DNA from: a virus
Length of the DNA: 64,000 nt
Strand: one strand, 5' to 3'
Virus record (IMG/VR): IMGVR_UViG_3300006947_000007
Location: 1-64,000 of that record
Shown: one piece after another, positions 26,620 to 64,000 of the stretch
Numbering within the stretch: the stretch's first letter is position 1
Layout of the letters: each line of letters begins with the position of its first letter
Program-made: the position numbers and the translations under genes
The notes under the pieces: model-generated
Told to the model about the DNA's origin: nothing
What the model saw: the letters and a program-made list of their open reading frames with translations, nothing else
Database searches by the model: none

Positions 26620-26987
26620 AACGGTACTTGAATATAATCATCTTCTTCTAAGTCGGGTGGTGTTAGAAGCTCTAATGTTATATGTTGCTCAACTGCTAAA
26701 GCATACTCGTCAGCTAGTTGTTTAAGATGTGGATGTTTTTCTTCCATTTCTACATTACGGTCCAAATCTGCTGGAATACCTAATGCCCTTTCTATTCGCT
26801 GTAGGCGATAATTAACTTGGTCTAGTTCAGTATTGTCTTCTGCTAAATCTGAAAGCCTGGCTTTAAGAAATGGTTCATTAGCAAAGTCTATTCCTGATTC
26901 GGAAGTCATATATTTAATTGAGTTGCTATCTTCATTGTAATAACTATCTATGTCTAGTATATACTGGCCGTGTTCATCTGGGTTCAT
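26616..26987 (-). CDS. hypothetical acidic protein
   Basis: 123 aa, acidic, with a predicted helical hairpin (L-D-Q-V-N-Y-R-L-Q-R-I-E-R-A-L-G; residues about 55-70). Overlaps both neighbours by 4 nt, lying between the radical SAM and SGNH genes, so it is part of that set. It may be a small partner or structural protein. No family recognised. Confidence 0.7.
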   Translation of the reverse strand: MNPDEHGQYILDIDSYYNEDSNSIKYMTSESGIDFANEPFLKARLSDLAEDNTELDQVNYRLQRIERALGIPADLDRNVEMEEKHPHLKQLADEYALAVEQHITLELLTPPDLEEDDYIQVPF

Positions 26988-28279
26988 TTTGTTTCTCCTA
27001 ATTCGATCCTTTCTTCTTTCTTAGATCTTAGTGATGTAGCAATTGATCCACAGTTATCAATACAAATATTAAGCCTAGGCTTATCGGGATCATCTGTTTT
27101 ATTATCCCAACTATCATGTAAATCCTTTTGAAAGAATTTATGATGTAAGATATCTTCTAATGTATGATGACTTGTATAGTTCCACTTCTCATCATACTTG
27201 TTAACATAGTAATTTTGGTATTCGTTATCAGGCTGTCCTTGTTCGTTTGCTGAATCCTTGTTCCAAGGTCTACCAAAGTATGCTGTCATATGGCAACAAA
27301 CATGGACTCGTCCGTCCCATTCAATTTGTAGCTTTCCTTCATTGCCCCACTGACACCAAATGCTACAATTATTAGCATAGTCGTCCATATCGTTGTTAAA
27401 CTCTTCGACAACAATTTTCTTTGCTTTTACTTCCATTTCTTTGTATGCTTCTGTAGTGTGACTGTGTTCGGCACCGTCGGACATGTCTTTCTTTTTTACC
27501 TTGCTAAAGCCATCAACTTCATAACTTGTTTCTTTGTCTTCCACAGTCATAACACCTGTTCTAATTGCTTCTTCTCTTAGTGTGTTAGAAATGTGTTCTG
27601 CCATTCTACTACGTCTAATATCAAACCTGGAGAATCCATATTCTTTTGCTAGTTTTTGAGCATCTTGTATCTGATGTTTGTTATGATCAAATTCTATAAA
27701 CTGCCATACTGCTACACCACCAGCATCCATAAACCACTTAGCTCTTTCTAATACTTTTTCGTAAGGTACACCCCTACGATACATTTGGTGTGTCTTATCG
27801 TCTGTGCCTTCTAAAGCAAATATAACTTCAGAGTTGTTAGGGTTATATCGTTCACTGGCAATCTTGCCTAGTTCAGTCCAAAATGCTTTATCTCTTACAC
27901 CACCGTTTGTGCTAATCCATAAGTCAGTACGTCGGTTACGACCGTTTGCTTCACGCTCTGCTTTTTGTGAATCACTAACGTCTGCTATATGGTGTAAGAT
28001 TTCAATCAAGTCTGGGTGCATTATACAGTCACCAAACGTGCCATTAAAGTCTAATGTTTTAAGACCTCCCATTACTGTAGGAGTAAACACATTTTTAACA
28101 GTTGACAACGGCATGTTACCCTTATGTCCTACTTGTATAGCAGGATTGATATCACCTTCTTTAAGTCCTAGTCGTGGAACATCTGACGATACACGCCTCA
28201 AGCATCCAGGACAGAAACTATTACAGTTGGCTGTAATATCTATTGTAATTCTTCTAAGTTTTTTAGGGTCTAAGAACAT
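26984..28279 (-). CDS. radical SAM protein with SPASM-like C-terminus
   Basis: 431 aa. Radical SAM motif C-N-S-F-C-P-G-C (Cys19, Cys23, Cys26) binds the [4Fe-4S]-SAM cluster. Further C-S-I-W-C, V-C-C-H and C-I-D-N-C cysteines in the C-terminal third suggest a SPASM or twitch auxiliary-cluster domain. The family makes a 5'-deoxyadenosyl radical; SPASM members often modify peptides. The sequence closely parallels the enzyme at 57537-58583 (C-P-G-C motif, G-D-x-x-M-x-P, S-T/D-T-N-G-G). Its start overlaps the stop of the upstream oxygenase gene (28279-28905) by 1 nt, as the 57.5 kb enzyme is also paired with an oxygenase. Substrate unknown. Confidence 0.88.
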   Translation of the reverse strand: MFLDPKKLRRITIDITANCNSFCPGCLRRVSSDVPRLGLKEGDINPAIQVGHKGNMPLSTVKNVFTPTVMGGLKTLDFNGTFGDCIMHPDLIEILHHIADVSDSQKAEREANGRNRRTDLWISTNGGVRDKAFWTELGKIASERYNPNNSEVIFALEGTDDKTHQMYRRGVPYEKVLERAKWFMDAGGVAVWQFIEFDHNKHQIQDAQKLAKEYGFSRFDIRRSRMAEHISNTLREEAIRTGVMTVEDKETSYEVDGFSKVKKKDMSDGAEHSHTTEAYKEMEVKAKKIVVEEFNNDMDDYANNCSIWCQWGNEGKLQIEWDGRVHVCCHMTAYFGRPWNKDSANEQGQPDNEYQNYYVNKYDEKWNYTSHHTLEDILHHKFFQKDLHDSWDNKTDDPDKPRLNICIDNCGSIATSLRSKKEERIELGETK

Positions 28280-39641: not shown

Positions 39642-40877
39642 CTATTCAATTAATTCGTGGTAGTGAGGGAAATGATCAGAGAATGATATTTTTCTTCTTT
39701 TCTCTAATATTTCAAATTGCTTCTTTGCTAATTGCTTAGCCTCTGTACTTACCTTACCGCTAACCATAGATTTCATATCCCGTAGAACCGATATGTATCC
39801 TTGTTTATCGTCAAATGTTCCAGACATGTCGATAAAATAATCTATTTGTTCTTGTATTGTGTTAGTGTGGCTAGGGTCTAAACCTAACACAGAAAGCCAC
39901 AACGGATCTTGTACCCGATTATGGTGCATTATTATTTCTTTATCGTAATCAAATTTATTAATTTTCTCATTCAAATATATCAAAAAATCCTTAAAGTATG
40001 GTAGACTTAAACTGTTATGAGCACAGCCAAATCCTAATATTAAATTTTTAGTTTCTTTTGATTGTTTAAAGAACGAGTCTACATTTTGGTTCCATTTATC
40101 AAAGTCCAGGCCCCATCTAATTAGTTCACTCCTCTTACCTAATGCTTCTCCGGAAAGTTGCATTTCATAACGAATGTTTGGGGTTCTCTTCACTAGCTCT
40201 ATAAACTTATCATACTTGTGTTTCGGAAAGTTTAAATTGGTTGTAACAACTAGTACAACTTCTTGCCCGTCGGTTATAGTGTCATTAATGTTAACTATAA
40301 ATTCTTCTATAAATTGATACATGTGATTTGTAAAGAATGGTTCGCCACCTAATAAACTAAAGGTTATAAAATCTTTATGTTTAAGAGTACTGTTCCACCA
40401 TTCATTTAATAATTGAAGTACTTTTTCAAATATAGCATCCTCTGTATCTGGGAATCGTCTACCTGTTTCTTTCTGCCAACGGCTACTCTGACCTTCCCAA
40501 CAATAGGCACATGCCATATTACATTTGTTTGTTAGTTCGAGTTCAACAAACTGAAATAGATCAGATGACAAGTCTAATTTTTTATTAAATAAGGGATTGT
40601 TTTTGCGAATATGCTCAGTTCTTGTACTAGTACCGCTCGCTTCTTCTGATTTCCAGCACCCAGAACAATCTGCGGATTGTATGCCGTTGCTTAATTCATA
40701 TTTTCTTTTTTGTAGCGTTGGGTGATTGAGTAAGAAATCTAAGCCTTTTGCTTCTAATATATCTAAATCAAATGTAACTTCAGCTCGCTGATCTTCTGTT
40801 AATTCTGTCTTACAACACCAGTTGACTGTTTTATTTGGCAGAGATATAATAAGATCGTTCCAAGTTTTGAAACACAT
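39642..40877 (-). CDS. radical SAM protein with N-terminal auxiliary-cluster module
   Basis: 411 aa from ATG 40877 (M-C-F-K-T-W-N); the longer frame overlaps the IscA-like gene and has no ribosome site. The N-terminal third has paired cysteines (W-C-C-K; D-C-S-G-C-W-K-S-E-E), a twitch/SPASM-like cluster site placed before the core. The radical SAM motif is C-N-M-A-C-A-Y-C, followed by L-L-G-G-E-P-F-F. Members of this type also occur at 55583, 58772 and 62385. It sits between the IscA-like gene and the tail-fibre genes, so both cluster supply and a possible substrate class flank it. Confidence 0.88.
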   Translation of the reverse strand: MCFKTWNDLIISLPNKTVNWCCKTELTEDQRAEVTFDLDILEAKGLDFLLNHPTLQKRKYELSNGIQSADCSGCWKSEEASGTSTRTEHIRKNNPLFNKKLDLSSDLFQFVELELTNKCNMACAYCWEGQSSRWQKETGRRFPDTEDAIFEKVLQLLNEWWNSTLKHKDFITFSLLGGEPFFTNHMYQFIEEFIVNINDTITDGQEVVLVVTTNLNFPKHKYDKFIELVKRTPNIRYEMQLSGEALGKRSELIRWGLDFDKWNQNVDSFFKQSKETKNLILGFGCAHNSLSLPYFKDFLIYLNEKINKFDYDKEIIMHHNRVQDPLWLSVLGLDPSHTNTIQEQIDYFIDMSGTFDDKQGYISVLRDMKSMVSGKVSTEAKQLAKKQFEILEKRRKISFSDHFPHYHELIE

Positions 40878-40893
40878 TGTATCCGCATGATGT

Positions 40894-41226
40894 TCAGACT
40901 GCAAATGACTCGCCGCACCCACAACTTGAAGTTGCTTGGGGGTTCTTAACTGCTAGGAACGATCCGCCTAGTTCTTGAACATAGTCAATAACACTACCCA
41001 AGACGTACATTTCAGCAAGTTTATTAATCATTAATCTATTATCGGAATCGTCGCTTAGTTGTACTTCGATCCATTCGTCTGGGTCTGTGATTTCATTGGC
41101 AAACTTCCAGTCGTATGTAAATCCACTACAGCCACCACCTTTTATAGTGAATGTGGCATATTTCTTATCATTTGTTGTTGTGGCGTTTAGCAAATAATCC
41201 TTTGCTTTGTCAGTTACGTCTATCAT
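40894..41226 (-). CDS. A-type iron-sulfur cluster carrier (second copy)
   Basis: 110 aa, full HesB/IscA length. Ligands: Cys33 in G-G-G-C-S-G-F and Cys102/Cys104 in S-C-G-C-G-E-S-F. It differs clearly from the copy at 5263-5610, so the two are not a recent duplication. Immediately downstream of the ferredoxin gene and upstream of the radical SAM gene in transcription order, which suggests cluster delivery to that enzyme (inference). Confidence 0.95.
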   Translation of the reverse strand: MIDVTDKAKDYLLNATTTNDKKYATFTIKGGGCSGFTYDWKFANEITDPDEWIEVQLSDDSDNRLMINKLAEMYVLGSVIDYVQELGGSFLAVKNPQATSSCGCGESFAV

Positions 41227-41596: not shown

Positions 41597-41598
41597 AA

Positions 41599-41757
41599 CT
41601 AGCCTTTCGTTAGTACTTGGTAGGCGCCGTAGGCTATTGCGGCATAGGCGGCGTATGTAACCCATCCACCTAAAAATAGTATAACTAATCCTACAGCAAC
41701 TAATCCTAGTCCACCATGAGATGCTTTCTCTTTCATTCTACTTGTAATAAAATCCAT
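41599..41757 (-). CDS. small membrane protein
   Basis: 52 aa from ATG 41757 (M-D-F-I-T-S-R), which has an AAGGAGA ribosome site; the upstream ATG at 41784 lacks one. A charged, Gly-rich start precedes a hydrophobic Gly/Ala/Val helix pair (G-L-V-A-V-G-L-V-I-L-F; Y-A-A-Y-A-A-I-A-Y). Function unknown. It lies between the glucosaminidase and ferredoxin genes. Confidence 0.65.
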   Translation of the reverse strand: MDFITSRMKEKASHGGLGLVAVGLVILFLGGWVTYAAYAAIAYGAYQVLTKG

Positions 41758-51696: not shown

Positions 51697-51728
51697 GTTT
51701 TGGCCTACGTTTTGGCCTACGTTTTGGC
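51697..51728 (-). repeat. 12-bp tandem repeat over a stop codon
   Basis: On the minus strand GCCAAAACGTAG is present twice, plus a partial third copy. The first copy holds the last codons (Ala-Lys-Thr) and stop codon of the gene at 51717-52403, so the stop occurs twice in the repeat. It lies at the boundary between the large operon and the ligase-operon promoter. Confidence 0.7.
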
Positions 51729-52403
51729 GAAATTTGACAGTAATTCGTCGTTTCGGGTGGAGTATAAGTCAATCCAATACTGTAAAGTATCTAGTTGTGC
51801 TTCGCTTATAGTTGTAGATAGTGTAAAGTTAATAAACTTCCTAACTGTTTCTCTGTAACAAAATGTGTATAAGTCATCAGCTTCTATCGTACAAAGAGGT
51901 AAGTTCTTTCGTACTGCTTTGTTATTGGTCGTCCATTGGTCTGGATCATAATCAGGAACATGGCCGTTCTTTATTTGAAATAGTCTATAAAACTTCTTTG
52001 CCATTTCGTCTGTCGAGCCTAGGTGAAATATTATATTAATGTTACTGAAATGGTCCTCTAACCATGTAGGATAAGAATGTATAACACCAAAGTGTATTGC
52101 TCCATCCTTTGCTATTATATCATCAAAGTATTTCAGTCTTTCTTCTGTTGTTTCTATATTGTATTGATCATTCCACGATGTGCCGCCCAACGTTATATTC
52201 TTCTTAGCCGGCCCGGGTGTATTAAATTCAAGTCCATGTGTCCATGTGTCCCATCTATTCTTAAAATCTTGCTTAGTTGAGTGGATTGGTGTCTGTCCCA
52301 GCTTGTATTCTTGTTCGCTCATGATCATATGCTGTAGGAACATTAAAAAGTGAGTTCCTGCGCCTTCTGTTATAATGCTCATTGTTACAGGGGCATTATT
52401 CAT
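51717..52403 (-). CDS. P-loop-like protein, family member 1
   Basis: 228 aa. G-A-G-T-H-F-L-M-F-L-Q at 14-24 is the family motif G-A-G-x-x-F-L-x-x-L-Q, shared with the proteins at 52396, 53075 and 60078; here the Lys of a P-loop is replaced by Thr. Sequences ending in a hydrophobic helix and the spacing of the motif suggest a P-loop kinase or sulfotransferase-like fold. No other motif found. It is the last gene of the radical SAM array, overlapping the next by 8 nt. The start could also be M8. Confidence 0.7.
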   Translation of the reverse strand: MNNAPVTMSIITEGAGTHFLMFLQHMIMSEQEYKLGQTPIHSTKQDFKNRWDTWTHGLEFNTPGPAKKNITLGGTSWNDQYNIETTEERLKYFDDIIAKDGAIHFGVIHSYPTWLEDHFSNINIIFHLGSTDEMAKKFYRLFQIKNGHVPDYDPDQWTTNNKAVRKNLPLCTIEADDLYTFCYRETVRKFINFTLSTTISEAQLDTLQYWIDLYSTRNDELLSNFAKT

Positions 52404-53082
52404 TTAACAATTCCTTATTAAGTTTTGTATATGTTTTGATCATTTCACATATGGGGTCTAATCGTTCTTGATTGATATCGTTATAAGGTAACGTGTTTAT
52501 TAGAAACTTTTCTATTTCATTGTTATTAATCTCAAAGAAAAACTTCTTATATGATATCATAGTGTTGGGCGGATACAATTCAAATGCTGTTTCGTTTATT
52601 TTAAATATTCTATTAAGGTACTCGTGATCTAATATTTTATTAGGGTTCAAGCATTCTTCGTTGTTTTTTATATGGCCTTTTACTCGAGCTAACTTTTGAA
52701 CAAATTCCTGTGTCTCGATGTCCTCAACATTTACTGCAATTTCGTGAGTAATATGCTTCCATTGTTGTTCTATACCAACCGGGAAAGTATGCTGGAGCAA
52801 CATAGTATTTGTTATAATATTTTTGGACAGATCCCTGTAAAGTTCTTGACTCTTAACAACATCAAATCCAGTGGCTCTGGGCAGAGGTAATGACATCATA
52901 GGCATATCTTGTTGTAAGTGCCACACATTAAATGGTTTCTCTTCGTCCCAGATATTTCCTATGGGGAAGTCGGCTTCTTCTTTATACGGAACAATATCTC
53001 GATAGTATGCCTGTAAGTATCCTAAAAAAGATTTACCAGCACCCGCAGGAACTGTACATATATAAAGATGGTTATCATTCAT
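52396..53082 (-). CDS. P-loop-like protein, family member 2
   Basis: 228 aa. Motif G-A-G-K-S-F-L-G-Y-L-Q at 14-24, a fair Walker A (G-x-G-K-S). C-terminal residues I-C-E-M-I-K-T-Y-T-K-L-N-K-E-L-L are almost identical to the end of the protein at 63647. Possible functions: kinase, sulfotransferase or another group transferase. Overlaps both neighbours by 8 nt. Function is not established. Confidence 0.72.
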   Translation of the reverse strand: MNDNHLYICTVPAGAGKSFLGYLQAYYRDIVPYKEEADFPIGNIWDEEKPFNVWHLQQDMPMMSLPLPRATGFDVVKSQELYRDLSKNIITNTMLLQHTFPVGIEQQWKHITHEIAVNVEDIETQEFVQKLARVKGHIKNNEECLNPNKILDHEYLNRIFKINETAFELYPPNTMISYKKFFFEINNNEIEKFLINTLPYNDINQERLDPICEMIKTYTKLNKELLNE

Positions 53083-54055
53083 CCAAAGTGCTCCATTTAT
53101 GTGACGTTAATACTTTGTTGCTCACTAGGTGCCAGTTTTTCATTATTTTAAGATTTGTATCGTGGTATCTTTTTAATAAATCTTGACACGTTGATATCAT
53201 ATTATCAGATGTGTCTGCCCCGGTAGTTGCTTGTAGGAATCGCTTAACAGTATTATAATCTTGATCAATAATCAACTCTGAGTAACTTATCTTAATTTTC
53301 GGCTTCATTCCGTATTTTCTAGCTATACAATATATCTTCCATTCAGTATTACATCGTTCGAGATTAGTTGAAATACTGTGTATAGGGACCGGTGGTGTTT
53401 TGTTACTATTATCCATAAACCTACGAACAGTCTTTCCGCCCAGATCTCCGTTGGCTGCATGTTTCAATGATGCTAAAAAATGGGTCCAAACAAATGTTTT
53501 GATATCCATATCGAGGAAAAAGACACATTCTGTTTCAACAAAAAATGGCAATGTTAATAGATCAGTGTGGACTTGTAGCTCGTGGGTTTCTGTAAAACGC
53601 AATACAAATGATATAAATTTAGACCAGGTCTGCTCCCACGTGGTATGCCTGTTTACTAAGTCCATAACATCCTGTTCTAAGTCTGCTGTTCGTTTTTGTC
53701 CGTGTATTGGATTTTTTGTAAGTTCTTTAAAATTAAGCCCGTAAATATCGTCCCATAAGTTGATTTTTCTATTCTCGGGGCTGATAGCCTCAATTTCGAT
53801 CTCACCTTTTGCTAACTCCTGAAGCACTCCTAAAAAACTGCCACCTGCACCGTATGGAGCAATCGAATAACATAATTTAATATCTCTATGCGGATTTAAT
53901 TCAAATAGTTTGAAGTGATTCTTTGGATGTCGAGTTTGTATCTCATTTCGCAAAGAACTTTCAGTAGCATTCATAAGTTGAGGTAGACCTATAGCACAGA
54001 CATACTTGTCAAAGTCTTGAAGTTGTTCCTGGCATTCTATTATTCTATGTTTCAT
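53075..54055 (-). CDS. P-loop-like protein, family member 3
   Basis: 326 aa, larger than the relatives because of about 60 extra N-terminal residues (cysteine-containing). Motif G-A-G-G-S-F-L-G-V-L-Q at 69-79, with Gly in place of the P-loop Lys. The centre contains F-F-V-E-T-E-C-V-F-F-L-D-M-D (about 170-183). Overlaps neighbours by 8 and 11 nt. In an operon with radical SAM enzymes and a tail-fibre-like protein. Confidence 0.72.
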   Translation of the reverse strand: MKHRIIECQEQLQDFDKYVCAIGLPQLMNATESSLRNEIQTRHPKNHFKLFELNPHRDIKLCYSIAPYGAGGSFLGVLQELAKGEIEIEAISPENRKINLWDDIYGLNFKELTKNPIHGQKRTADLEQDVMDLVNRHTTWEQTWSKFISFVLRFTETHELQVHTDLLTLPFFVETECVFFLDMDIKTFVWTHFLASLKHAANGDLGGKTVRRFMDNSNKTPPVPIHSISTNLERCNTEWKIYCIARKYGMKPKIKISYSELIIDQDYNTVKRFLQATTGADTSDNMISTCQDLLKRYHDTNLKIMKNWHLVSNKVLTSHKWSTLDE

Positions 54056-54440
54056 CTACTGGCTCACTAATTACTCTCCGCCAGCTGAGACCGTTGTAGA
54101 AATATAGATCTTGTGTGTCGGAACAATACATTACCTGGCCAGGTAATGCTGGAAATGGTAAATTGCCAGACCTAGTAGGTTTTAATGCTATATGATTTGT
54201 TACTATACTGTTGGCATCAAATTCGTTGAATACAACAACTTCTCCAGATGCCTTAACTACTAATTTGTTATCGTTATTTTTATCAGCTACAGATAGTATA
54301 GCCAATGACTTAGGATACGTTGGGTCACCTGCCTTAATCCTAAGACCCATTCCTGCGTCATTTATATTATGTATAGTTAAGCCGTAGTCTTCTGTGCTAA
54401 TATCTATTATTGATTCTGGTAAGTCCTTCCTCTCACTCAT
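54045..54440 (-). CDS. short tail-fibre-like protein in the radical SAM operon
   Basis: 131 aa from ATG 54440 (M-S-E-R-K-D-L-P-E), with a GGGAGA ribosome site inside the radical SAM gene end; the longer frame to 54572 runs into that gene. Beta-rich, ending P-G-Q-V-M-Y-C-S-D-T-Q-D-L-Y-F-Y-N-G-L-S-W, which is the same Y-x-x-T-x-x-x-x-Y-x-N-G-x-W module found in the tail-fibre proteins at 38279 and 38907. A single Cys sits in the module. It is the one apparent virion-type protein in the array, so it is a candidate substrate (inference). Confidence 0.72.
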   Translation of the reverse strand: MSERKDLPESIIDISTEDYGLTIHNINDAGMGLRIKAGDPTYPKSLAILSVADKNNDNKLVVKASGEVVVFNEFDANSIVTNHIALKPTRSGNLPFPALPGQVMYCSDTQDLYFYNGLSWRRVISEPVDET

Positions 54441-55590
54441 AACTAGTGTCTCCCGGAAACAATGGTAATTTAGTTCCTGGTGCTCGTTTAGGTATCTTAC
54501 TATCTGCTGAACTAACACATGAAGGACTAATACAAGGCATAGGTTTACTAAACAACTTAAAGCCTGTTTCAATGTTTCCTAACGGTACATCCTTGCAACT
54601 GTAACTTCTTTTTACACTACCATCCGGTTCTCTAATAATAATACTACGATACCCTGAACTACATTCCCAGTCGGTGAACTTATTAAAGTTAAAAGCATTA
54701 AATCTTTCTGCTTGATCCATGTACCATTCCTTATGATTACTATCCTTAAACTCTACTTGGAAGTGTTGTGGCACACTCTCCTCACCAAAGTTTTTATATA
54801 TAGGATCAGGTGCTCTCATAAATGTAGGTGTGGGTCTTTCTACATTTATATTTTTAGATTCAGTAAATGCCCGCTGTGGCATTCCGTTGTGTAACCTTTC
54901 AAGCATGTCTTTAGTGTAACCGTCGACAACCTTAGACGCTGTTGGATCTGATTGAGGCTTGAGCGTAACGTTAATACCTCTATTGTGGAAATATAACGAT
55001 TCTTCCCATAGGTCTTCGAACCATTCGGGAACCATAACTTGGTTAATTGTGACTTGGACATCGTGTTCCTGGACGAAGCAAAGTTTATCGGCGAAGTCTT
55101 CTCGTTTCTCTTGTGTGTTAACGTGTTCCCTGTGGTATGAGGCTGTAATACTGGCTCTATGGAACGCTGATACAATTTTGACATATTTTTCAAACCATTT
55201 CATATTTCTCGACATGTTCGTAGTCATGTGTACACTAGTAAAATTAGTGTTGCTTACGTCATCTGCCAAGTGTTTCATTATATCTAAATAGCCAGGATGG
55301 AACGTTGGTTCACCTCCACTTAAACTAAAGTGAAAACTGTTAAATCCACGTTCACGTGCTTGGCGCTTAATCTCATCAACTGTTGTTAAACATAACTCAG
55401 TAGGCCTGAAATCTTTCTTATCACTTCTAGCATACGGCCAACAGTAAGAACATTTGTAGTTACAAAAACGTCCTAGTAACCAACTAACTGAAAACATATC
55501 TCTATACAGCATAGTTCGTTGTCCTACTCTAACTAAATCGTCAAAGGGGACTTTACTAAAATCGTAGTTGCTCCATTTTAAATCATTCAT
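54433..55590 (-). CDS. radical SAM protein
   Basis: 385 aa. Core motif C-N-Y-K-C-S-Y-C (about 43-50) and S-G-G-E-P-T-F (about 90-96) identify the radical SAM fold. The C-terminus has W-E-C-S-S-G-Y, S-C-K-D-V and P-C-I-S-P-S-C, a SPASM-like set of cysteines. SPASM enzymes commonly modify peptides. It is a third architecture beside the two others in this window. It overlaps the neighbours by 8 nt each. Confidence 0.88.
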   Translation of the reverse strand: MNDLKWSNYDFSKVPFDDLVRVGQRTMLYRDMFSVSWLLGRFCNYKCSYCWPYARSDKKDFRPTELCLTTVDEIKRQARERGFNSFHFSLSGGEPTFHPGYLDIMKHLADDVSNTNFTSVHMTTNMSRNMKWFEKYVKIVSAFHRASITASYHREHVNTQEKREDFADKLCFVQEHDVQVTINQVMVPEWFEDLWEESLYFHNRGINVTLKPQSDPTASKVVDGYTKDMLERLHNGMPQRAFTESKNINVERPTPTFMRAPDPIYKNFGEESVPQHFQVEFKDSNHKEWYMDQAERFNAFNFNKFTDWECSSGYRSIIIREPDGSVKRSYSCKDVPLGNIETGFKLFSKPMPCISPSCVSSADSKIPKRAPGTKLPLFPGDTSYE

Positions 55591-56767
55591 TTAATAACTC
55601 CTTTGCCCACGGAAACATATCTCGATACTTAATGGGGTTATTAAAATCCCATAGTTGAACACTCGTATATAGTTCACGGCGTTCTTGGTTAGTAATTTCC
55701 CGTACATCATTCTTTATCCGATGAAGTAGTGTATGGTAACTGTTGCTAACATTTGTGGGGAAAGCAAAGTTGTCTAGTTGTTCTATTAGATTAGTTCGAT
55801 ACTTCATCGGAATTAGTTCCCAATTAAGGCAGGTAGGATAGTCGATATCATTCCATTCGATTTTACAAGTGATATTATCTTCTTTAATCCAGTTGAAAAA
55901 CTCAACGATTCCGAACAAATTTAAATGACTCCAACACGGTGTAATAGAAGTTGTTATTCCGTGCTCTAATAATATATTGTAATTTCTTTTTACTGATTTC
56001 CATCTTACTGGATAGCGTTGATATTCGATCCATTTGTCTACACCATCTATGCTACAGCCGATACTGGCACTATCGAATTGTTTAAGTATATCTAAGACAT
56101 AAGTTTTCACTGTAGTACAGTTTGTTAAGAAGAACGTATGTAAGTCTGTGCGGCCCGCTTTGATTAGTTTTATTAATAGTTCTTCTACTTCTGGCATTAC
56201 AAACGGTTCACCACCAGCAAATTTTATTTCTTTAATATTCTCATTGTTTAAAATAAATTCATATAAGCCTTTAACAGGATCAATATAACCAACACTACTG
56301 TAATATACAGCATTTTCATCCTTAGCAAATTGAATATCTAAAACGCCTGCCTCTGTAGCTGATACTATATTCTTTGCTATTTGGTCACTGTTGCCGGAGT
56401 AACACATCTTACATTGTAAGTTACATTTATTCGAAAGACGCACATCTATTATTTCTAATACAGGAGTATCAAAAGGATCTATTCTGCGTTCTTTATATAA
56501 TTTATTTGATTCTTGCCTTTTAGATATAGATCCACTGTCTTCTAATTTCCAACATGACACACAGCTCGACGGCCTAGTATCTGTTAGAAACTCATGCCGT
56601 ATATTATTTAATCCCTCATCAGTATGGAACCAGTTGTTCGATCCGCTAAGAGGTGTTCCCTTGTAACTATCTGTTTGTATACAGCAAGACTTATATCCGG
56701 GTGTAGTGTCGCCCGAATTATGATCTATATATAGTTCTCTGAACGGGATATAACAAAAGTTTTTCAT
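55583..56767 (-). CDS. radical SAM protein with N-terminal auxiliary-cluster module
   Basis: 394 aa. N-terminal cysteines: F-C-Y-I-P-F, S-C-C-I-Q and S-C-V-S-C-W-K-L-E-D-S, then the core C-N-L-Q-C-K-M-C (about 116-123) and F-A-G-G-E-P-F. This arrangement (cysteine module first, SAM core second) is shared with the proteins at 39642, 58772 and 62385. Overlaps the 258-aa oxygenase by 4 nt and the next radical SAM gene by 8 nt. Confidence 0.88.
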   Translation of the reverse strand: MKNFCYIPFRELYIDHNSGDTTPGYKSCCIQTDSYKGTPLSGSNNWFHTDEGLNNIRHEFLTDTRPSSCVSCWKLEDSGSISKRQESNKLYKERRIDPFDTPVLEIIDVRLSNKCNLQCKMCYSGNSDQIAKNIVSATEAGVLDIQFAKDENAVYYSSVGYIDPVKGLYEFILNNENIKEIKFAGGEPFVMPEVEELLIKLIKAGRTDLHTFFLTNCTTVKTYVLDILKQFDSASIGCSIDGVDKWIEYQRYPVRWKSVKRNYNILLEHGITTSITPCWSHLNLFGIVEFFNWIKEDNITCKIEWNDIDYPTCLNWELIPMKYRTNLIEQLDNFAFPTNVSNSYHTLLHRIKNDVREITNQERRELYTSVQLWDFNNPIKYRDMFPWAKELLNE

Positions 56768-57540
56768 AGTGTCCTCATAAACGATATCCTCACGCCACCT
56801 TTCATAATAAAATTACCTGCGGTAGATTCGTGTACTTGCGCGGTGTCGAATACAAGTAACGACCCCGGTGACCATTTAAAATCCCTTTCAATTGTTAGTC
56901 CTTTATGGTATTCTTTATCAGTTATTCCTATCCTGGCCATCTCTTTTTGTTTCATTTTCTCATCACCAATAACAGTAGGTCTGCGATTAACATCGTACAC
57001 ATCCTTAATAGCAGTATAATCTGTTGAGGAGTCGTAGTGCGAAGTAGGCACAGTTGAGCCGTGATCTAATGTTGTGCCTACATCTGCTATACGTTGATCA
57101 TAGAATACTATACGGCAGTTGCTAGTGTCTGGTTGTAAGTATAGTGGGATTAATACACTCTTGTAGGGTGTATTTTGATGTTCCCAAGCACCGCGTTCTG
57201 GCATGTCAGTATGTATACCGTATTGGTGCGGTGTGTGAAAGAAATTACCCTGTACGCTAGTAACAATGTCAAAATCAATATACTGTGATAACTTTTCTTT
57301 TAGGATATTAACTAATTCGTCAAAGTTCCCTGCTGTCATTAGCAATCCACTAGTGTTTCCTAGCATCCACTCATCTGTTTTATTGTACATAAAATCTGTT
57401 AGTGTTTCTAATTCATCTTCTGAAAACATATCTTCATGACATTCGGCTACAGAGAAGTATTTTGTTAATTCATCGGGATATTCGGAACGCCACTTATGAT
57501 CAGCGTGTGCTTTAAGTTCGGTATTATGTCCTATAGTCAT
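56764..57540 (-). CDS. 2OG-Fe(II) oxygenase (phytanoyl-like)
   Basis: 258 aa. Iron ligands H-T-D at about 113-115 (Y-G-I-H-T-D-M-P) and the distal His in F-D-T-A-Q-V-H-E-S, followed by R-I-S-F-M-R for 2-oxoglutarate. The segment W-S-P-G-S-L-L-V-F-D is the usual strand before the distal His. It is between radical SAM genes and overlaps each by 4 nt, mirroring the pair at 26984-28905. Substrate unknown. Confidence 0.87.
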   Translation of the reverse strand: MTIGHNTELKAHADHKWRSEYPDELTKYFSVAECHEDMFSEDELETLTDFMYNKTDEWMLGNTSGLLMTAGNFDELVNILKEKLSQYIDFDIVTSVQGNFFHTPHQYGIHTDMPERGAWEHQNTPYKSVLIPLYLQPDTSNCRIVFYDQRIADVGTTLDHGSTVPTSHYDSSTDYTAIKDVYDVNRRPTVIGDEKMKQKEMARIGITDKEYHKGLTIERDFKWSPGSLLVFDTAQVHESTAGNFIMKGGVRISFMRTL

Positions 57541-58583
57541 ACTGCTACCCAGGCCTCTTCTTGCTCTATGTGGTTATTCATTGTCCATGCATTGCCCTTA
57601 CATACATTCCAGCATACTTTATATTCACAACCACTTTTCTTTTCCCATTCCTCCTTAAACTGTTCAAATACACCATGTTGTAATATAAACTGTAGTGTAT
57701 TCTTTTCTGCTAAGTTAAATCCTTTATTATAATGATTAAACAAATAAGGATTATCTGTTTTAAATTGTTCTGGATAACCGATGTGGCTTTTACAATAACG
57801 TTGACTAGTATAACAGCAAGGCCATATTCGTCCTTCACCGTTTAAATAAATTCTACTTAATTCTAAGGATTTACAACCTATGGCTTGATCGTTTGTCACT
57901 ACATCAACTGTGTTTGCTCGTATATCTTCTGCTTGTGCAGTTGTATATTTAACTCCATTAGCACCCGGATGCGAGTTTAATGATTTGTATAATGCAGGTG
58001 GTGGTCTCATGCTCATTCTAGAATCAAATCTAGCAAACCTATAAGACTTTGCTAATTGACTAGCTTCTGTTGTTTGGTGTTTGTTATGCTCAAATATTAG
58101 CCATTTCCATGTTGCCTTGCCGCCTGCTTCAATAAACGTTGTAAAGTTTTGTTTAAGTTTTGTCCAATCTACATTAACTCTGTATATGTGATTAGTATCT
58201 TCTAGTCCGTCTATGCTAAATGTACAGTCAACTCTAGGTATCTTTGCGAGTTTTTGCCAAAACTCATTGCTTCTAAGTCCACCATTAGTATCTATAAACA
58301 CTTTACTAACACCCAAGTCCACCCATGTCTGAATACCTTCTAGTATCCTAGGGTTCATTAACGGATCGCCTAGATTACCGCATAGGTGTATTTCTAATTC
58401 GTTTATATTAGGTATTTGTTTAATTACTTTTGTTACTATGTCAACATCTAGATGTTCTTCAATTAAATTGGGTAATTTATCACTGGTTCCCCAATAATGT
58501 CTACTACAGCCAGGGCATGCCGCATTACAGTATGTAGATAATTCTACTTCTAATTGTTTTATTTTATCTAGTTCAATAAACAT
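57537..58583 (-). CDS. radical SAM protein with SPASM-like C-terminus
   Basis: 348 aa. Core motif C-N-A-A-C-P-G-C (19-26) and G-N-L-G-D-P-L-M-N-P, then C-terminal W-P-C-C-Y, Q-R-Y-C and C-W-N-V-C for auxiliary clusters. Paralogue of the enzyme at 26984-28279, with which it shares C-P-G-C, D-T-N-G-G-L-R/S-T-N-G-G-V-R and W-x-K/E-L. It overlaps the oxygenase gene by 4 nt and lies 1 nt from the DUF2061 gene. Confidence 0.88.
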   Translation of the reverse strand: MFIELDKIKQLEVELSTYCNAACPGCSRHYWGTSDKLPNLIEEHLDVDIVTKVIKQIPNINELEIHLCGNLGDPLMNPRILEGIQTWVDLGVSKVFIDTNGGLRSNEFWQKLAKIPRVDCTFSIDGLEDTNHIYRVNVDWTKLKQNFTTFIEAGGKATWKWLIFEHNKHQTTEASQLAKSYRFARFDSRMSMRPPPALYKSLNSHPGANGVKYTTAQAEDIRANTVDVVTNDQAIGCKSLELSRIYLNGEGRIWPCCYTSQRYCKSHIGYPEQFKTDNPYLFNHYNKGFNLAEKNTLQFILQHGVFEQFKEEWEKKSGCEYKVCWNVCKGNAWTMNNHIEQEEAWVAV

Positions 58584-58584
58584 G

Positions 58585-58785
58585 TCATTCTTTGCCCCAT
58601 TCTATTTTATCCCATACTCGTTCATGAATATAATACAAAATAGCCATACCAAATAAAGAAACAACAAACCAACCAGTCTGTTCCCAATTACCTGTTATAA
58701 TATAACTTACTATTGTTAAAAGAACTATAACAATAATTCTCCATGATATTGTTTTAACAATAGATCTTTTTTTAGTGTCCATCAA
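58585..58785 (-). CDS. DUF2061 membrane protein
   Basis: 66 aa with the family pattern: K-R-S-I-V-K-T-I-S-W-R (6-16), two membrane helices (16-32; 38-52), and Y-Y-I-H-E-R-V-W-D-K-I at the end. DUF2061 proteins are small inner-membrane proteins of unknown role, found also in phages. Its start overlaps the 437-aa radical SAM gene by 14 nt and its stop is 1 nt before the next. Confidence 0.9.
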   Translation of the reverse strand: MMDTKKRSIVKTISWRIIVIVLLTIVSYIITGNWEQTGWFVVSLFGMAILYYIHERVWDKIEWGKE

Positions 58786-60085
58786 ACAGTTCCTTATACT
58801 GCGGTGTAACCATTAATATGTTTTGTTTTCTTTCTTGGTCTAAGTACTTTGTAAACTTAATAAATTCAGGCATTTTATCTGAATAGTCTTCAGCGTCCAT
58901 ATAGTTTGTTACACTATCTAATATTTTATTAAACTTTTGTTTAACATTGTCATCTATTGTTGTATCTTTATCTAATTTATCTTTATAATAATTGTAATGT
59001 TCGTGGACATCTTGTTTTAATTCTTTATTTAATAATCTAATATTAGCACGTTTAGGACCGTGAGCTACGTGATGTGTTATAACAGGCTTACTGCTACTTG
59101 AATTAATCTTTTTATATCCTGATTCTTTTAATTTCCACATCATAAATTCAGGTAAATGAAATATATTATATGCTGTAACAGTAAAGGCAATCCAGGCAAC
59201 AACATTCTTAGGTAAATTATCTAACTTTTCTAAGTTTGCTTTTGCCTGTCGCCATTTAACTGGCCAACGTTGGTATTCTATCATCGGCCCCATTCCATCT
59301 ATACTAGCACCGACTCTTATTTGTTTAAATTCTTCCCACATTTTTAATACTCTAGGTGGAAGTGATGTCATATTCGTATTATATTCAATCATTATATTTT
59401 TAGCACACCCCGAATCAATACATCTCTGTAAGAATTCATAATGACGTTCGATCATCATCGGTTCGCCGCCTGCCATATAAACATGTTCAATATAAGGAAT
59501 ATTCTTTTCCATTTGTTCCCAAAATGTTTCTGAATTATGCCAATCATAGTCAGTTGTTTCTAACCTTCCTTTAGCATTACGTTTAAGTTCCACGGTTCCG
59601 TGTGTATCTTCGTACGTTGTTCCTCCGTGGTACCCTAGCCATTGTTCGTACCATGTGTGACTATCAGTTGGGCCACACATCCTACAGGCTAGATTACATA
59701 AGTTTCCGAAACGTAAATCGTAATACTGGTTGCGAACTGTGATGCTACCGTCAGGTGCTGTATCACGAACAGCGGACTCGTAATCATATTCCCAATGCTC
59801 TAATTCGTACAACCTTCGGCTTTGTAATCCTGCTTCTTCTTCAGATTTACAGCGACCGCACTCCTCACTCCAACGACCTGCTAACATATTTTTACGAACT
59901 ATCTTCATTAGGTCAGCGTTCTTGGCATCATCAAAGTTATCACGGCCAGCATTAAAACTGGTACCGTCTGGGTGTCTTACTACGCCCTGATTCTTAGTCA
60001 CATTGGCTTGACAACATATTCTAATGTCTCCATTGTTTCTAACTGCTTGGAAGTTCCAAGGTATCGGGCAAAATGTTTTACTCAT
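58772..60085 (-). CDS. radical SAM protein with N-terminal auxiliary-cluster module
   Basis: 437 aa. N-terminal cysteines: T-F-C-P-I-P-W, R-I-C-C-Q-A-N and E-C-G-R-C-K-S-E-E-E-A-G, followed by the core C-N-L-A-C-R-M-C (about 128-135) and A-G-G-E-P-M-M. This is the fullest example of the N-terminal module type. The C-terminal 100 residues are helical and cysteine-free. It overlaps the P-loop-like gene at 60078 by 8 nt. Confidence 0.9.
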   Translation of the reverse strand: MSKTFCPIPWNFQAVRNNGDIRICCQANVTKNQGVVRHPDGTSFNAGRDNFDDAKNADLMKIVRKNMLAGRWSEECGRCKSEEEAGLQSRRLYELEHWEYDYESAVRDTAPDGSITVRNQYYDLRFGNLCNLACRMCGPTDSHTWYEQWLGYHGGTTYEDTHGTVELKRNAKGRLETTDYDWHNSETFWEQMEKNIPYIEHVYMAGGEPMMIERHYEFLQRCIDSGCAKNIMIEYNTNMTSLPPRVLKMWEEFKQIRVGASIDGMGPMIEYQRWPVKWRQAKANLEKLDNLPKNVVAWIAFTVTAYNIFHLPEFMMWKLKESGYKKINSSSSKPVITHHVAHGPKRANIRLLNKELKQDVHEHYNYYKDKLDKDTTIDDNVKQKFNKILDSVTNYMDAEDYSDKMPEFIKFTKYLDQERKQNILMVTPQYKELFDGH

Positions 60086-60764
60086 GTTTAAGATTTCCTA
60101 GTTCTAATATTTCCCAATTTTTCCTATGATATTTTGCTATCAATGTAGTAATATCTCCTATAGTCACCGGGCTTTCTACTTTAAATGTATCCTCAGTACG
60201 CTCTACTATCTCAGTTATCAAACGAGGATCCAATTCATGAAATAAACTAGTGTAGTCATAAGTGTAATCAGCTTTATAGTGATTCATGTTCTCAGTTTCC
60301 CAAGAATGAATGAGAGTTTGTTCAGCTTCGTGTACACTTCTATTAAATTCGTCTTTCTTTTTATAGTTTGCTAGATTATTTAATTCTATTCTTTGATCAA
60401 CATTATCTAAAATACATACAACACCGTAATGCGGTATGCCTGGAAGACTAGCGTCTAATATGAATGTTCCTTTGTAAGACACATTTAATCTATCTATGAT
60501 TTCTTTCCGAGCTCGATGTTTCTCATACCTATTTCCTAAGTATTTACGCCAAATGCTTTGGCACTCAAGTAATTCTTTATTCCAGTCAGTTCTATCATAC
60601 CAATTAGGATTAAAATGGAATGGCAAGTATATACCGTCAAACAAATTATTAGTATCTATTTGTTTTTCGATGTTTTTTACAGTTTCTTTCCCTTTAATTA
60701 CTGTTTGTAATGCTCCGAGAAAGTTCTTCCCCGCACCGTGTTGTATTATGCTAAATTCTCTCAT
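60078..60764 (-). CDS. P-loop-like protein, family member 4
   Basis: 228 aa. Motif H-G-A-G-K-N-F-L-G-A-L-Q at 9-20 matches the family signature with a P-loop Lys. The C-terminus N-W-E-I-L-E-L-G ends in a helix. Same length as members 1 and 2. It is placed between a sulfotransferase and a radical SAM gene. It may be a transferase of sulfate or phosphate. Confidence 0.72.
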   Translation of the reverse strand: MREFSIIQHGAGKNFLGALQTVIKGKETVKNIEKQIDTNNLFDGIYLPFHFNPNWYDRTDWNKELLECQSIWRKYLGNRYEKHRARKEIIDRLNVSYKGTFILDASLPGIPHYGVVCILDNVDQRIELNNLANYKKKDEFNRSVHEAEQTLIHSWETENMNHYKADYTYDYTSLFHELDPRLITEIVERTEDTFKVESPVTIGDITTLIAKYHRKNWEILELGNLKHE

Positions 60765-60803
60765 TTTATTATACTTCTATATCTATTATTGTTCCTTGAA
60801 GGG

Positions 60804-61664
60804 TCATCTATAACTCTCCAAATTTATATCTGTTATCATACAGTTTTGATCTATTGTCATTAAGTCCGATAAACCATCAATTTCATATTTCTTATGTATT
60901 TTTGTTGCTAGTTCATATAGTTGGTCATAATTAGAAACAATATCTTTTTTATCAGGTGCTTTTGAGTTGTTATCTTTTAATTGATCATAATGTTGTCCGG
61001 TATGGACTATTACTTCGTCAACCTCTGGTAATTCCTCAGTTAAAGTATCGCATATAGATAAAGAGCCAAATATTTCTTTCGGTGTCCGTCCTACTATGTC
61101 ATCCTCATAAAACAGCAAATCTTGAGCCTTTATATTGTGTGGGTTATTTGCTAAAGTCATATAATTACCTTCTATAACACTCTTACATACTAATTCAAAA
61201 AACTCTGGATCTATATGTATTTTGCTAGTATCATTATACGGCGGCAGCCATTCTAGTTTATGTCTAGCAATTGTGGCGCTCAGTACAGTACTCCATATAT
61301 CACGTCTAGTTAAAACAATATTATGTTGAGCTAAATTCATCGTTACTTTTTTCAAATCATCCATATCTTTGAAGATTTCGTCTTCCATTTCACCCGGGTG
61401 TGTTTTCCAGACAGCGGCATTAGTTTTGCCATTTACAAGTGCTTCCATTTTATTGCAGACTGCCTGCCTAATTTGTTCTGGTGTGTCTAAACCCATCAAC
61501 TCATCATTATTAAAAGAAAATGGTGACCCAGTCCACATGGGGTTATCAGCACATTTAGGACAAGCGTCCATATATAACATAATTATATCATGTAAGTAAT
61601 TGCTACCCGATCTAGGTGTAGCATAAATTTGAACCTTTTTTGGTTTTGTTTGTGCCCATTTCAT
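60804..61664 (-). CDS. sulfotransferase-family protein
   Basis: 286 aa. The start Y-A-T-P-R-S-G-S-N-Y-L (13-23) is a PAPS-binding 5'-phosphosulfate loop, and I-V-L-T-R-R-D-I-W-S near residues 116-125 fits the 3'-phosphate-binding R ... S element. Sulfotransferases move sulfate from PAPS to hydroxyl or amino groups, in the cytoplasm. The gene overlaps the SGNH gene by 4 nt. The acceptor is unknown. Confidence 0.85.
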   Translation of the reverse strand: MKWAQTKPKKVQIYATPRSGSNYLHDIIMLYMDACPKCADNPMWTGSPFSFNNDELMGLDTPEQIRQAVCNKMEALVNGKTNAAVWKTHPGEMEDEIFKDMDDLKKVTMNLAQHNIVLTRRDIWSTVLSATIARHKLEWLPPYNDTSKIHIDPEFFELVCKSVIEGNYMTLANNPHNIKAQDLLFYEDDIVGRTPKEIFGSLSICDTLTEELPEVDEVIVHTGQHYDQLKDNNSKAPDKKDIVSNYDQLYELATKIHKKYEIDGLSDLMTIDQNCMITDINLESYR

Positions 61665-62392
61665 GTTAGTATTTCCGTTAATTTAGGTATTATAGCCTCG
61701 GCAAACTTTTTATGACTCTTTGCTCCGGGGTGTTTATCTTTGTAATCATCATTAGCATACGTTGGACTATTTCGTTGTATACCTACGCCAGGTATAAAGA
61801 ACTGCTTATGGCATAGGTGTTGAGCATAATTAAATGCAGAAACATCGTAATGATCTTTACATAGTAGTTCATCGCTTTCAACATAAGCATAAGGAATCTT
61901 TAAATTACCTAGATATTGTTCTGCGATACCTACTTCTTTATATAAATTAATTAATTGTTGTGCTTTATTAATATATAATTTATTGTGGGCGTTAATTAAT
62001 GATTTATCTATTCCATTAGTAGTACTTGCCCATGTACTGTTAGAGAAGTTAGGTTGTTTATCTTCACTCCAGTTTAAATGTATAACACCGTCGTCAGCAA
62101 TATAACTTACGTTTTCTTTATTACTAACCACGTCAGTAAAATATTCATTTCTATTAGCATTTGGCCATTGTATAAACACAAAGTCAGGATAGCCGTGTAC
62201 GGGGTTATCTAAGTATTGTAATAATATTCTATTAACCGTGCTAGGACTTGCTCCTGGTATTGCTAAATTAATTAATTTATTAAATCCTAATTGTTCTTTT
62301 AATTGTATAGTATAACTATTATATCTTATGCCATACTGTATGTGATGACCTAAATGACTATAGCTACAGCCTAGTACTAATAAATTACTCAT
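61661..62392 (-). CDS. SGNH-hydrolase-like protein
   Basis: 243 aa. Block I is V-L-G-C-S-Y-S (6-12) with the nucleophile Ser10, block III W-P-N-A-N-R, and block V D-K-H-P-G-A-K-S-H (near 221-229) with D-x-H. Third SGNH protein of the window, here of another subtype from the two 297-aa paralogues. It overlaps the radical SAM gene by 8 nt. Likely an esterase or acyl-transferase of a sugar. Confidence 0.8.
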   Translation of the reverse strand: MSNLLVLGCSYSHLGHHIQYGIRYNSYTIQLKEQLGFNKLINLAIPGASPSTVNRILLQYLDNPVHGYPDFVFIQWPNANRNEYFTDVVSNKENVSYIADDGVIHLNWSEDKQPNFSNSTWASTTNGIDKSLINAHNKLYINKAQQLINLYKEVGIAEQYLGNLKIPYAYVESDELLCKDHYDVSAFNYAQHLCHKQFFIPGVGIQRNSPTYANDDYKDKHPGAKSHKKFAEAIIPKLTEILT

Positions 62393-63650
62393 TTAAAAAT
62401 TCCTTTAATTTAGGAAATACCGTTTCCCAATTCTCTTGTCTTACTACATCTACTACTCGCTCGTGTTTATTAAAGTTCGCTAGTGCTGACGTTGTGATTA
62501 AAGAATCCATTATATGAGCAAGGTCTAACGTTTGTAAACTATTCTTTAATTCTGTTAAAGAATGCCATACTTGATTTTGCCACTTGCTACTTACTCCTTC
62601 ATCAGCAAAATTAAATGAGTTAAAATCCTCATCAATCAATTCTAATAACCTAGTCTTCTGCTTATTATTTAAGCAATATACACTTAGGTGTGACGGTTCG
62701 CTTAATCGTGCTGTATTAAGAAAGAATGACTCTTTATCATTTAATATGCTTTTATCTATATACATAGTACACCAATCTATAAACTCTCTATAGTATAACA
62801 CATTATAGAGGCTTTGTGTGTGCGATACGCCAATATATATGTTTTTATTTTCGTTATGTAGTTTACAGTACCAAGCAACAGCTTCTTCTACCTTACTCCA
62901 ATTACTCTTCTTACGCATAAACTCGCCACGTTTGCCTATGCCATCTAAGGACATATTAAGGAATACTGTATTAAACTTATTAAAGTTTTTAATATATTTG
63001 TTTTTAGGAATGAATGTAGCATTAGTAAAGATGTCTAATGTAATGTTCTTAGCAAAACCCCAATCAACTAAGCGTTGTAGGAACTCTGCTAGGTATTCAC
63101 TAAGGAATGGTTCACCACCTGTTACTTTAACTTCATTTAAGTATTTACAGTCGTCCTTAGATAAGTTAAGCATTGTGTCTATTGTCTTAGGTATTGCCTT
63201 ATCCTGTTCCCAGGCTTCATTGTTACCATAAAACCATTTAACCAAATGATCCGATGCTTCTAAGTCTTCATCCCAACTTGTACTTAATACTGGGTCACAT
63301 ATACGACATTTAAGGTTACAGTAGCGTCCTGTTGTTATTTCTAAGTAAGTCAACACTCCTTTTATCTCTGGAGAGTTCGGCTTAACACTACGATTAAACT
63401 TATCATATGGTAATAGACTGCTTGTTCGCATACTAGTATTACTAGAGTCTTCTTCTACTTTACAGCGTAAACAACCATTATCCCATATACCATTAGCCAT
63501 GTTATCTCTAGGCGTACTATATAACTCTTTGAATTCAATAGGATTATCTACGTATTCACTATTGCCTGTGTAACGACAACAAGGCTTAACACTACCGTTA
63601 GGTTCTATCATCATTCCATGCTCTAAATACTTACATACTATCGCGGTCAT
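62385..63650 (-). CDS. radical SAM protein with N-terminal auxiliary-cluster module
   Basis: 421 aa. N-terminal cysteines: V-C-K-Y-L-E-H, P-C-C-R-Y and G-C-L-R-C-K-V-E-E-D-S, then the core C-N-L-K-C-R-I-C (about 112-119) and T-G-G-E-P-F-L. Fourth protein of this type. Overlaps the SGNH gene by 8 nt and the truncated family member at 63647 by 4 nt. Confidence 0.88.
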   Translation of the reverse strand: MTAIVCKYLEHGMMIEPNGSVKPCCRYTGNSEYVDNPIEFKELYSTPRDNMANGIWDNGCLRCKVEEDSSNTSMRTSSLLPYDKFNRSVKPNSPEIKGVLTYLEITTGRYCNLKCRICDPVLSTSWDEDLEASDHLVKWFYGNNEAWEQDKAIPKTIDTMLNLSKDDCKYLNEVKVTGGEPFLSEYLAEFLQRLVDWGFAKNITLDIFTNATFIPKNKYIKNFNKFNTVFLNMSLDGIGKRGEFMRKKSNWSKVEEAVAWYCKLHNENKNIYIGVSHTQSLYNVLYYREFIDWCTMYIDKSILNDKESFFLNTARLSEPSHLSVYCLNNKQKTRLLELIDEDFNSFNFADEGVSSKWQNQVWHSLTELKNSLQTLDLAHIMDSLITTSALANFNKHERVVDVVRQENWETVFPKLKEFLNE

Positions 63651-64000
63651 GCTATTAATTCCTTATTAACTTGTGTATATGTCTTAATCATTTCGCATAT
63701 AGTCTCTAGTTTATCGTTATTAAATTCTTTAATATCTATTGTACTTGTTAAAAACTTCTTTATTTCATCTTTATCTATATCAATAAAGATCTTTTTATAG
63801 TCAATATTAGTTAAAGGACTTGCTAATTGTATATTTTTATAAACATCTTCTGCTTTATCTTTTATTTTATTCTTGTTTCTTTCCATCCATAATGGAGATT
63901 TAGCACTTTTTAATTGAGAAGCATACTTAATTGTATCTAAATCGCCTGTAACTGCTAGTGTATGCTCTACATATTTGAACATTAATCGCAAGTCTATAGC
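63647..64000 (-). CDS. P-loop-like protein, family member 5 (5' end outside window)
   Basis: The frame is open to the end of the window, so the N-terminus with the expected motif is outside. The visible C-terminus I-C-E-M-I-K-T-Y-T-Q-V-N-K-E-L-I is nearly identical to the end of the protein at 52396-53082, and D-K-L-E-T precedes it as D-P in the relative. A TTG at 63991 is in frame but not a convincing start. It shows that the operon continues upstream of the window. Confidence 0.65.
   Translation of the reverse strand, partial: AIDLRLMFKYVEHTLAVTGDLDTIKYASQLKSAKSPLWMERNKNKIKDKAEDVYKNIQLASPLTNIDYKKIFIDIDKDEIKKFLTSTIDIKEFNNDKLETICEMIKTYTQVNKELIA

Follow-up and report, generated by a model that had tools for sequence, protein, structure and literature searches.

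What could a virus be making with an unbroken row of radical S-adenosylmethionine (radical SAM, rSAM) enzymes? The question is raised by IMG/VR virus record IMGVR_UViG_3300006947_000007, which comprises 82,405 bases; the first 64,000 bases are referred to here as the window, and the remaining part is stretch L009. Fifteen minus-strand genes form one operon of 12.7 kb (51717-64438), which reads from 64438 down to 51717 and encodes five intact rSAM enzymes (R1 to R5), five P-loop-like proteins (P1 to P5), and sulfotransferase-like, SGNH-hydrolase-like, 2-oxoglutarate (2OG) oxygenase-like, DUF2061 and fibre-like proteins (Table 1). With the fibre-like gene counted from its ATG at 54440, neighboring genes overlap by 4-14 nt at 12 of 14 junctions, the other two being +1 and +39 nt. 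The operon crosses the window edge, where P5 ends at 64438 and is followed by a 75-aa gene and then by an rSAM gene at 65231-66433. The whole record holds ten rSAM genes, the others lying at 26984, 39642 and 80664, plus one truncated by the contig end. An initial annotation, made from the bases of the window alone, had described 15 consecutive and mostly overlapping minus-strand genes, all of which are present, and had read them as a multi-step phage modification pathway acting on a peptide, a virion fibre or a surface glycan.

The five rSAM proteins of that annotation are upheld by PF04055, which scored R1, R2, R4 and R5 above its cut-off; R3 fell below it and has the CxxxCxxC motif. With a curated cut-off of 170 bits, the N-twitch rSAM family NF033640 includes R2, R4 and R5, with R1 (40.1 bits) and R3 (51.4 bits) below. 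The CxxxCxxC motif is retained in 138/139 R1-type and 360/368 other relatives, and, of 282 rows in the cluster of N-twitch and R3-type proteins, at least 99% keep the three core cysteines. Seven cysteines of R1 are invariant in 77/77 relatives: Cys 43/47/50 form the SAM cluster site, and Cys 310/332/353/358 are probably the ligands of an auxiliary cluster. Comparison of the window with its three closest relatives gave ratios of nonsynonymous to synonymous substitution rates (dN/dS) of 0.04-0.06 for R1, where computable, and 0.09-0.14 for R4, versus 0.14-0.17 for DNA ligase; a P-loop protein gave 0.16-0.37. All are rough figures, several dS values being large or saturated. Purifying selection acts more strongly on R1 than on the phage's own DNA ligase. 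Conserved cysteines and low dN/dS rule out that the rSAM genes are inactive remnants. Assignment of R1 as a viperin-type antiviral enzyme was also rejected, as the match reached 40 bits against a 180-bit cut-off.

Gene order is likewise conserved among the closest viral relatives, which by R4 identity are L010 (92%), L011/L016 (89%) and L018 (77%). Together with the window these make four lineage arrays, all of which keep the order P4, R4, R3, R1 and have at least one P-loop gene after R1 (4/4). In L011 and L018 the interval from R3 to R1 holds an extra P-loop gene; the corresponding place in the window is taken by the 2OG oxygenase-like gene and R2. Across the four arrays R1 and R4 are 77-92% identical and P4 34-62%. 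The search for synteny thus returned an rSAM/P-loop layout common to four viruses, and R1 arrays in many more. Synteny, conserved cluster cysteines and purifying selection all back the modification pathway first proposed; a lack of synteny and decay into inactive, cluster-less remnants had been named as outcomes that would speak against it, and neither was found.

Small open reading frames (ORFs) of these arrays were screened as precursors of ribosomally synthesized and post-translationally modified peptides (RiPPs), and none was conserved across all four. One candidate of 55-61 aa lies directly after R4 in two arrays (L011:11301-11468 and L018:4077-4262) and has no counterpart in the window or L010. 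Its sequence, 75% identical between L011 and L018, is rich in Tyr, Trp, Asp and Pro, and it is a possible modified-peptide precursor.

Beyond this lineage, R1 has relatives in at least 585 IMG/VR stretches, and the best 80 of these, which are 67-91% identical, supplied the locus statistics, including run lengths and positions. In these loci, runs of co-directional rSAM genes, with a median of 6, have R1 near their downstream end. Runs reach at least 3 genes in 63/80 loci and at least 5 in 52/80, with 9/9 genes in L046; many touch the edge of the fetched flank and may be longer, and the counts are not independent, because related samples contributed some near-duplicate loci. At the 42% identity level there is one R1 per locus among 147 rSAM subfamilies in total, and two other subfamilies recur in about half of the loci, namely the R4 group (48/94) and a group with a CTANASS motif (47/94). 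Recurrent companions include QueC-like PP-loop, PF05118 Asp/Asn-hydroxylase-like, small short-chain dehydrogenase/reductase (SDR)-like and aminotransferase-like proteins, as well as nitroreductase, TauD, B12-binding rSAM and methyltransferase-like proteins and a GT-A-like family; the SDR and methyltransferase labels were read from sequence, not Pfam. The GT-A-like family, modeled with a pLDDT of 86, has the glycosyltransferases RmlT and WrtF as its best PDB matches (probability 1.00, TM score only ~0.4). It stands beside R1 in 8/11 Bdellovibrionota loci and in some viruses, and its profile showed no similarity to window 43707-44471.

Sixteen related virus records contain 6-25 Pfam rSAM matches each, for example 25 in 184 kb, and bacterial genomes searched alongside them gave 18-50. 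The T4-type major capsid gene gp23 occurs in 8 of the 16 records, and also in the metagenome-assembled genome (MAG) that holds locus L108. The present 82-kb record, possibly a fragment, has no gp23, and has clamp-loader, ligase, PhoH and tail-connector matches. R1 had no match among 50,697 phage records, nor did megablast of window 40000-64000 find any match in phage isolates.

Two further features were observed in the loci. Stand-alone SPASM-like proteins lie beside rSAM-only proteins at L026:6643-7811, L030:8830-10001, L054:8366-8695 and L080:417-752, and these pairs are apparently split radical SAM enzymes. A highly conserved protein of 73-77 aa that belongs to no known family is encoded inside the R1 arrays at L020:776-997, L030:2763-2990 and eight further loci.

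Among 84,980 species genomes scanned, R1 was found in 13 loci, of which 10 are titled as Bdellovibrionota groups; the other three comprise one drawn with Bdellovibrionota, one Acidimicrobiaceae MAG and one Gammaproteobacteria MAG. In sampled genomes the frequencies were 16/241 for Bdellovibrionota and 1/274 for Gammaproteobacteria, or 0/273 without the phage-like L108 contig, whose R1 branches among the viral sequences in the tree and which also carries gp23. Bdellovibrionota and viral R1 sequences split with 99/99 support in a tree that is rooted on very distant outgroups and gives no direction of transfer. The Bdellovibrionota loci resemble the viral arrays in an R1 orthologue (57-69% identical), CTANASS-type rSAM genes (8/11), R3-like rSAM genes and the GT-A-like gene, but differ in their smaller sets and in that no P-loop family was found in them. 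Bdellovibrionota were rejected as the phage host on the evidence of the phage cysteine desulfurase, whose identity reaches 79% with Gammaproteobacteria and no more than 58% with Bdellovibrionota. Because the desulfurase is closest to Gammaproteobacteria, a host in that class is the better fit, and this comparison argues for such a host and for gene exchange. A similar host inference was drawn from IscU for a T4-like marine genome (PMC5332604). Two tRNA genes of the window, tRNA-Glu (23070-23144) and tRNA-Trp (42514-42588), could aid host assignment.

We tentatively propose, at a little less than even odds, that uncultured aquatic T4-like viruses have in the R1 arrays a distinct system for combinatorial biosynthesis, which they share with predatory Bdellovibrionota. 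In it a fixed rSAM core would build a new class of radical-chemistry-derived molecule, and dozens of exchangeable rSAM and partner enzymes would diversify it. Hundreds of aquatic viral contigs encode R1-type rSAM enzymes, under stronger purifying selection, where measured, than DNA ligase. The R1 core is absent from the phage isolates searched, and the Bdellovibrionota link offers a second system for study.

The P-loop-like proteins are the other hallmark of the window's lineage, to which the family is confined except for one C-terminal fragment in L032 detected by profile search. The initial annotation had described GAGxxFLxxLQ or a common C-terminus in the five proteins; all five share this motif, and a C-terminal helix is common to them as well. 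A modest AlphaFold model (pLDDT 70, pTM 0.71) has tyrosylprotein sulfotransferase-2 (TPST2) as its best PDB match (E 0.026, probability 0.90, TM score 0.34), with nucleotide kinases close behind. Neither the P-loop profile nor the sulfotransferase-like protein found a significant sequence match in the PDB, a fold search among viral proteins yielded no hit under E 0.003, and P5 as a single query found no relatives in IMG/VR or phage isolates. The model suggests a sulfotransferase-like fold, and sulfotransferase activity is putative. A Walker-A kinase reading of P1-P5 was rejected, as the loop sequence does not fit. The canonical sulfotransferase loop is carried by the neighbor of P4 (60804-61664). 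For this protein and the SGNH protein the initial labels stand as far as motifs go, PRSGSNYL in one and LGCSYS...DKHP in the other, and find no Pfam match.

The combination of a fixed core with exchangeable tailoring enzymes suggests that a single scaffold is being diversified. Our leading reading, which we hold tentatively and consider possible rather than probable, is that this operon of a T4-like phage encodes a multi-enzyme tailoring pathway whose product, built on a conserved scaffold and then diversified, is a surface or virion glycoconjugate. R1, often with R4-group and CTANASS N-twitch rSAM enzymes, would act on the common scaffold, which variable further rSAM, 2OG, PP-loop, nitroreductase and aminotransferase-like enzymes, and in this lineage sulfotransferase-like proteins, would diversify in a manner resembling sugar diversification by surface-glycan clusters. 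The product would be a modified sugar or a glycolipid or glycoprotein on the envelope of the infected cell or on the virion, and might block superinfection or alter recognition. It is perhaps sulfated in this lineage, with 3′-phosphoadenosine 5′-phosphosulfate (PAPS) from the phage adenosine 5′-phosphosulfate (APS) kinase (75743-76279, PF01583 above cut-off), and Fe-S clusters could be partly supplied by the phage cysteine desulfurase and A-type carriers. A glycoconjugate is favored because of sugar genes near distant rSAM clusters, the Bdellovibrionota GT-A-like gene, the APS kinase and the host-recognition context. The rSAM cluster of Pelagibacter phage Mosig holds DegT-type aminotransferase, carbamoyltransferase and SGNH-like genes, GT8 genes adjoin N-twitch rSAM genes of Vibrio phage K566, and Campylobacter phage CP220 has nucleotide-diphospho-sugar transferase annotations.

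Several observations weigh against a glycoconjugate. The window's own array holds no sugar-nucleotide pathway and no recognized glycosyltransferase, the possibly incomplete 82-kb record yielded no member of the GT-A-like family, the glycosyltransferase genes of isolates have no relatives in R1 loci, and the relationship of the rSAM genes in CP220 and Mosig to those in the window is distant. In alignment, P1-P5 lack the canonical 5′-phosphosulfate loop, showing GAGxxF with no conserved Lys or Arg, where the sulfotransferase loop is typically PRSG or PKSG, with a basic residue. Most characterized SPASM/twitch rSAM enzymes, moreover, act on peptides. This chemistry and the TPST2 match place peptide or protein modification close behind, with SPASM/twitch rSAM enzymes, together with 2OG, Asp/Asn-hydroxylase-like and sulfotransferase-like proteins, introducing cross-links or side-chain changes on RiPPs, tail-fibre or host proteins. 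N-twitch and SPASM-type auxiliary cysteines and the PF05118 companions agree with such a role, as does weak NCBIfam similarity to many peptide maturases, but those matches are far under cut-off. The operon includes a fibre-like gene, but it is not conserved; the 55-61-aa ORF is conserved after R4 in L011 and L018, but no small ORF is shared by all four arrays. The window proteins scanned with Pfam showed no RiPP recognition domain. We regard peptide or protein modification as somewhat unlikely.

A diffusible specialized metabolite, derived from amino acids or sugars and acting on competitors or on the host cell, would account for the natural-product character of the companions (aminotransferase-like, nitroreductase, PF05118, TauD, carbamoyltransferase, B12-binding rSAM and PP-loop), for an SbmA/BacA-type transporter elsewhere in the genome and for a core common to predatory Bdellovibrionota. 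Yet no scaffold-forming enzyme of the nonribosomal peptide synthetase, polyketide synthase, terpene or RiPP type was recognized in the window's array, the companions differ between loci and the operon has no export gene, which leaves this explanation with a small share of the probability. Hypermodification of viral bases against host restriction by the rSAM, PP-loop and P-loop proteins is very improbable. R1 often lies beside ThyX, ThyA or dihydrofolate reductase genes, and the record has QueC-like PP-loop genes and an amidinotransferase-like gene, but R1 also occurs on long Bdellovibrionota contigs, the loop of the P-loop proteins is unfit for a Walker-A kinase, and no base-modifying enzyme appeared among the scanned window proteins, in a search that included no hypermodification-enzyme models.

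Phage rSAM clusters as such are already known, which qualifies the initial statement that the array matches no described system: clusters have been reported (PMC2853527, PMC5332604, PMC7029224), none with a function. Campylobacter phages CP220/CPt10 encode 11-12 rSAM proteins per genome, and Timms et al. described an interchangeable module of five rSAM genes and an amidinotransferase, termed highly unusual (PMC2853527). Like the window, these T4-related phages have five adjacent rSAM genes, in a module that varies between close relatives. In contrast to the window, their rSAM proteins are only ~25-29% identical, they have no R1 and no P-loop family, and the module includes two putative nucleotide-diphospho-sugar transferases; the present phage has an amidinotransferase-like gene of the same family as theirs, but outside its array, at 69102-70214. 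The T4-like marine genome TARA_ERS488813_N000010 of Nishimura et al. has 12 rSAM genes and an A-type Fe-S carrier (PMC5332604); by its published description it resembles this phage in both respects, but that paper gives a count of the rSAM genes and no account of arrays, a core gene or a function. Pelagimyophages carry rSAM cassettes within host-recognition clusters (PMC7029224), and they and Mosig share with R1 arrays the combination of rSAM with nitroreductase, PF05118, aminotransferase-like, TauD, methyltransferase-like and SGNH-like companions, but have fewer rSAM genes, no R1 and no P-loop family. The large T4-like isolates K566, with four N-twitch rSAM genes in a stretch near two GT8 genes, and Vibrio phage KVP40, with two or three near each other, share the N-twitch genes with the window, but their rSAM proteins are ~25% identical and neither has R1. 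No function for these phage rSAM clusters came up in searches of an open-licence collection, which leaves out most subscription journals. What appears to be undescribed is the R1 core, the fact that it is nearly confined to uncultured viruses and Bdellovibrionota, and the operon that combines rSAM and P-loop genes.

Table 1. Operon genes and further rSAM genes of the window, in window coordinates
Feature	Coordinates	Strand	Evidence
P1, P-loop-like, 228 aa	51717..52403	-	family alignment; profile search E 1.6e-63
P2, P-loop-like, 228 aa	52396..53082	-	family alignment; profile search
P3, P-loop-like, 326 aa	53075..54055	-	alignment, profile search; L010 orthologue 50% identical
Fibre-like protein	54045..54440 (ATG 54440; longer TTG frame to 54572)	-	weak PHROG 17342, E 7.6e-4
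R1, core rSAM enzyme with C-terminal auxiliary-cluster domain, 385 aa	54433..55590	-	PF04055 E 5e-13
R2, N-twitch rSAM, 394 aa	55583..56767	-	NF033640 229.8 bits
2OG-Fe(II) oxygenase-like, 258 aa	56764..57540	-	H110, D112, H237 invariant in 25/25 rows; no Pfam match
R3, rSAM, 348 aa	57537..58583	-	PF04055 E 1.5e-5, 25.6 of 29.5 bits; PHROG 21308 E 4e-24
DUF2061 membrane protein, 66 aa	58585..58785	-	PF09834 above cut-off
R4, N-twitch rSAM, 437 aa, recurrent R1 partner	58772..60085	-	NF033640 374 bits
P4, P-loop-like, 228 aa	60078..60764	-	alignment, profile search; adjoins R4 in 4/4 lineage members
Sulfotransferase-like protein, PRSGSNYL loop, 286 aa	60804..61664	-	sequence motif; no Pfam match
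SGNH-hydrolase-like, 243 aa	61661..62392	-	motifs LGCSYS, DKHP; no Pfam match
R5, N-twitch rSAM, 421 aa	62385..63650	-	NF033640 244.9 bits
P5, P-loop-like, 263 aa	63647..64438 (window part to 64000; L009:1147-1938)	-	structure modeled
Further N-twitch rSAM, adjoins tail-fibre genes	39642..40922	-	NF033640 185.3 bits
Further rSAM with C-terminal SPASM-like domain	26984..28279	-	PF04055 and SPASM below cut-off; PHROG 21308 E 4e-17

Among the remaining operon genes, the initial DUF2061 label was confirmed by Pfam, and that of the 2OG oxygenase is borne out by an invariant HxD...H triad, though without a Pfam match (Table 1). The fibre-like gene, 76% identical in L010 and missing from the corresponding position in L011 and L018, is accessory to the operon.

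Elsewhere in the genome, Fe-S supply genes encode a cysteine desulfurase, three A-type-carrier-like proteins and a 2Fe-2S ferredoxin (Fer2 above cut-off), at window positions 5263-5610, 9865-11085, 40894-41226 and 41261-41665 and at L009:10711-11037. A second cluster (L009:12451-15609, or 74951-78109 on the window scale) holds three QueC-like PP-loop genes and the APS kinase, with a small uncharacterized gene between, and adjoins a divergent glycine-rich tail-fibre-like gene. The gene at 28279-28905 is matched by a PF05118-type cluster profile. The SbmA/BacA-type peptide transporter (19141-20166, PF05992 E 5e-79) belongs to a plus-strand cluster at 18300-22395, and two of its neighbors have relatives in L054. 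An NAD-dependent D-2-hydroxyacid dehydrogenase, possibly a formate dehydrogenase, is encoded at window 31333-32541 (PF02826 E 3.5e-47).

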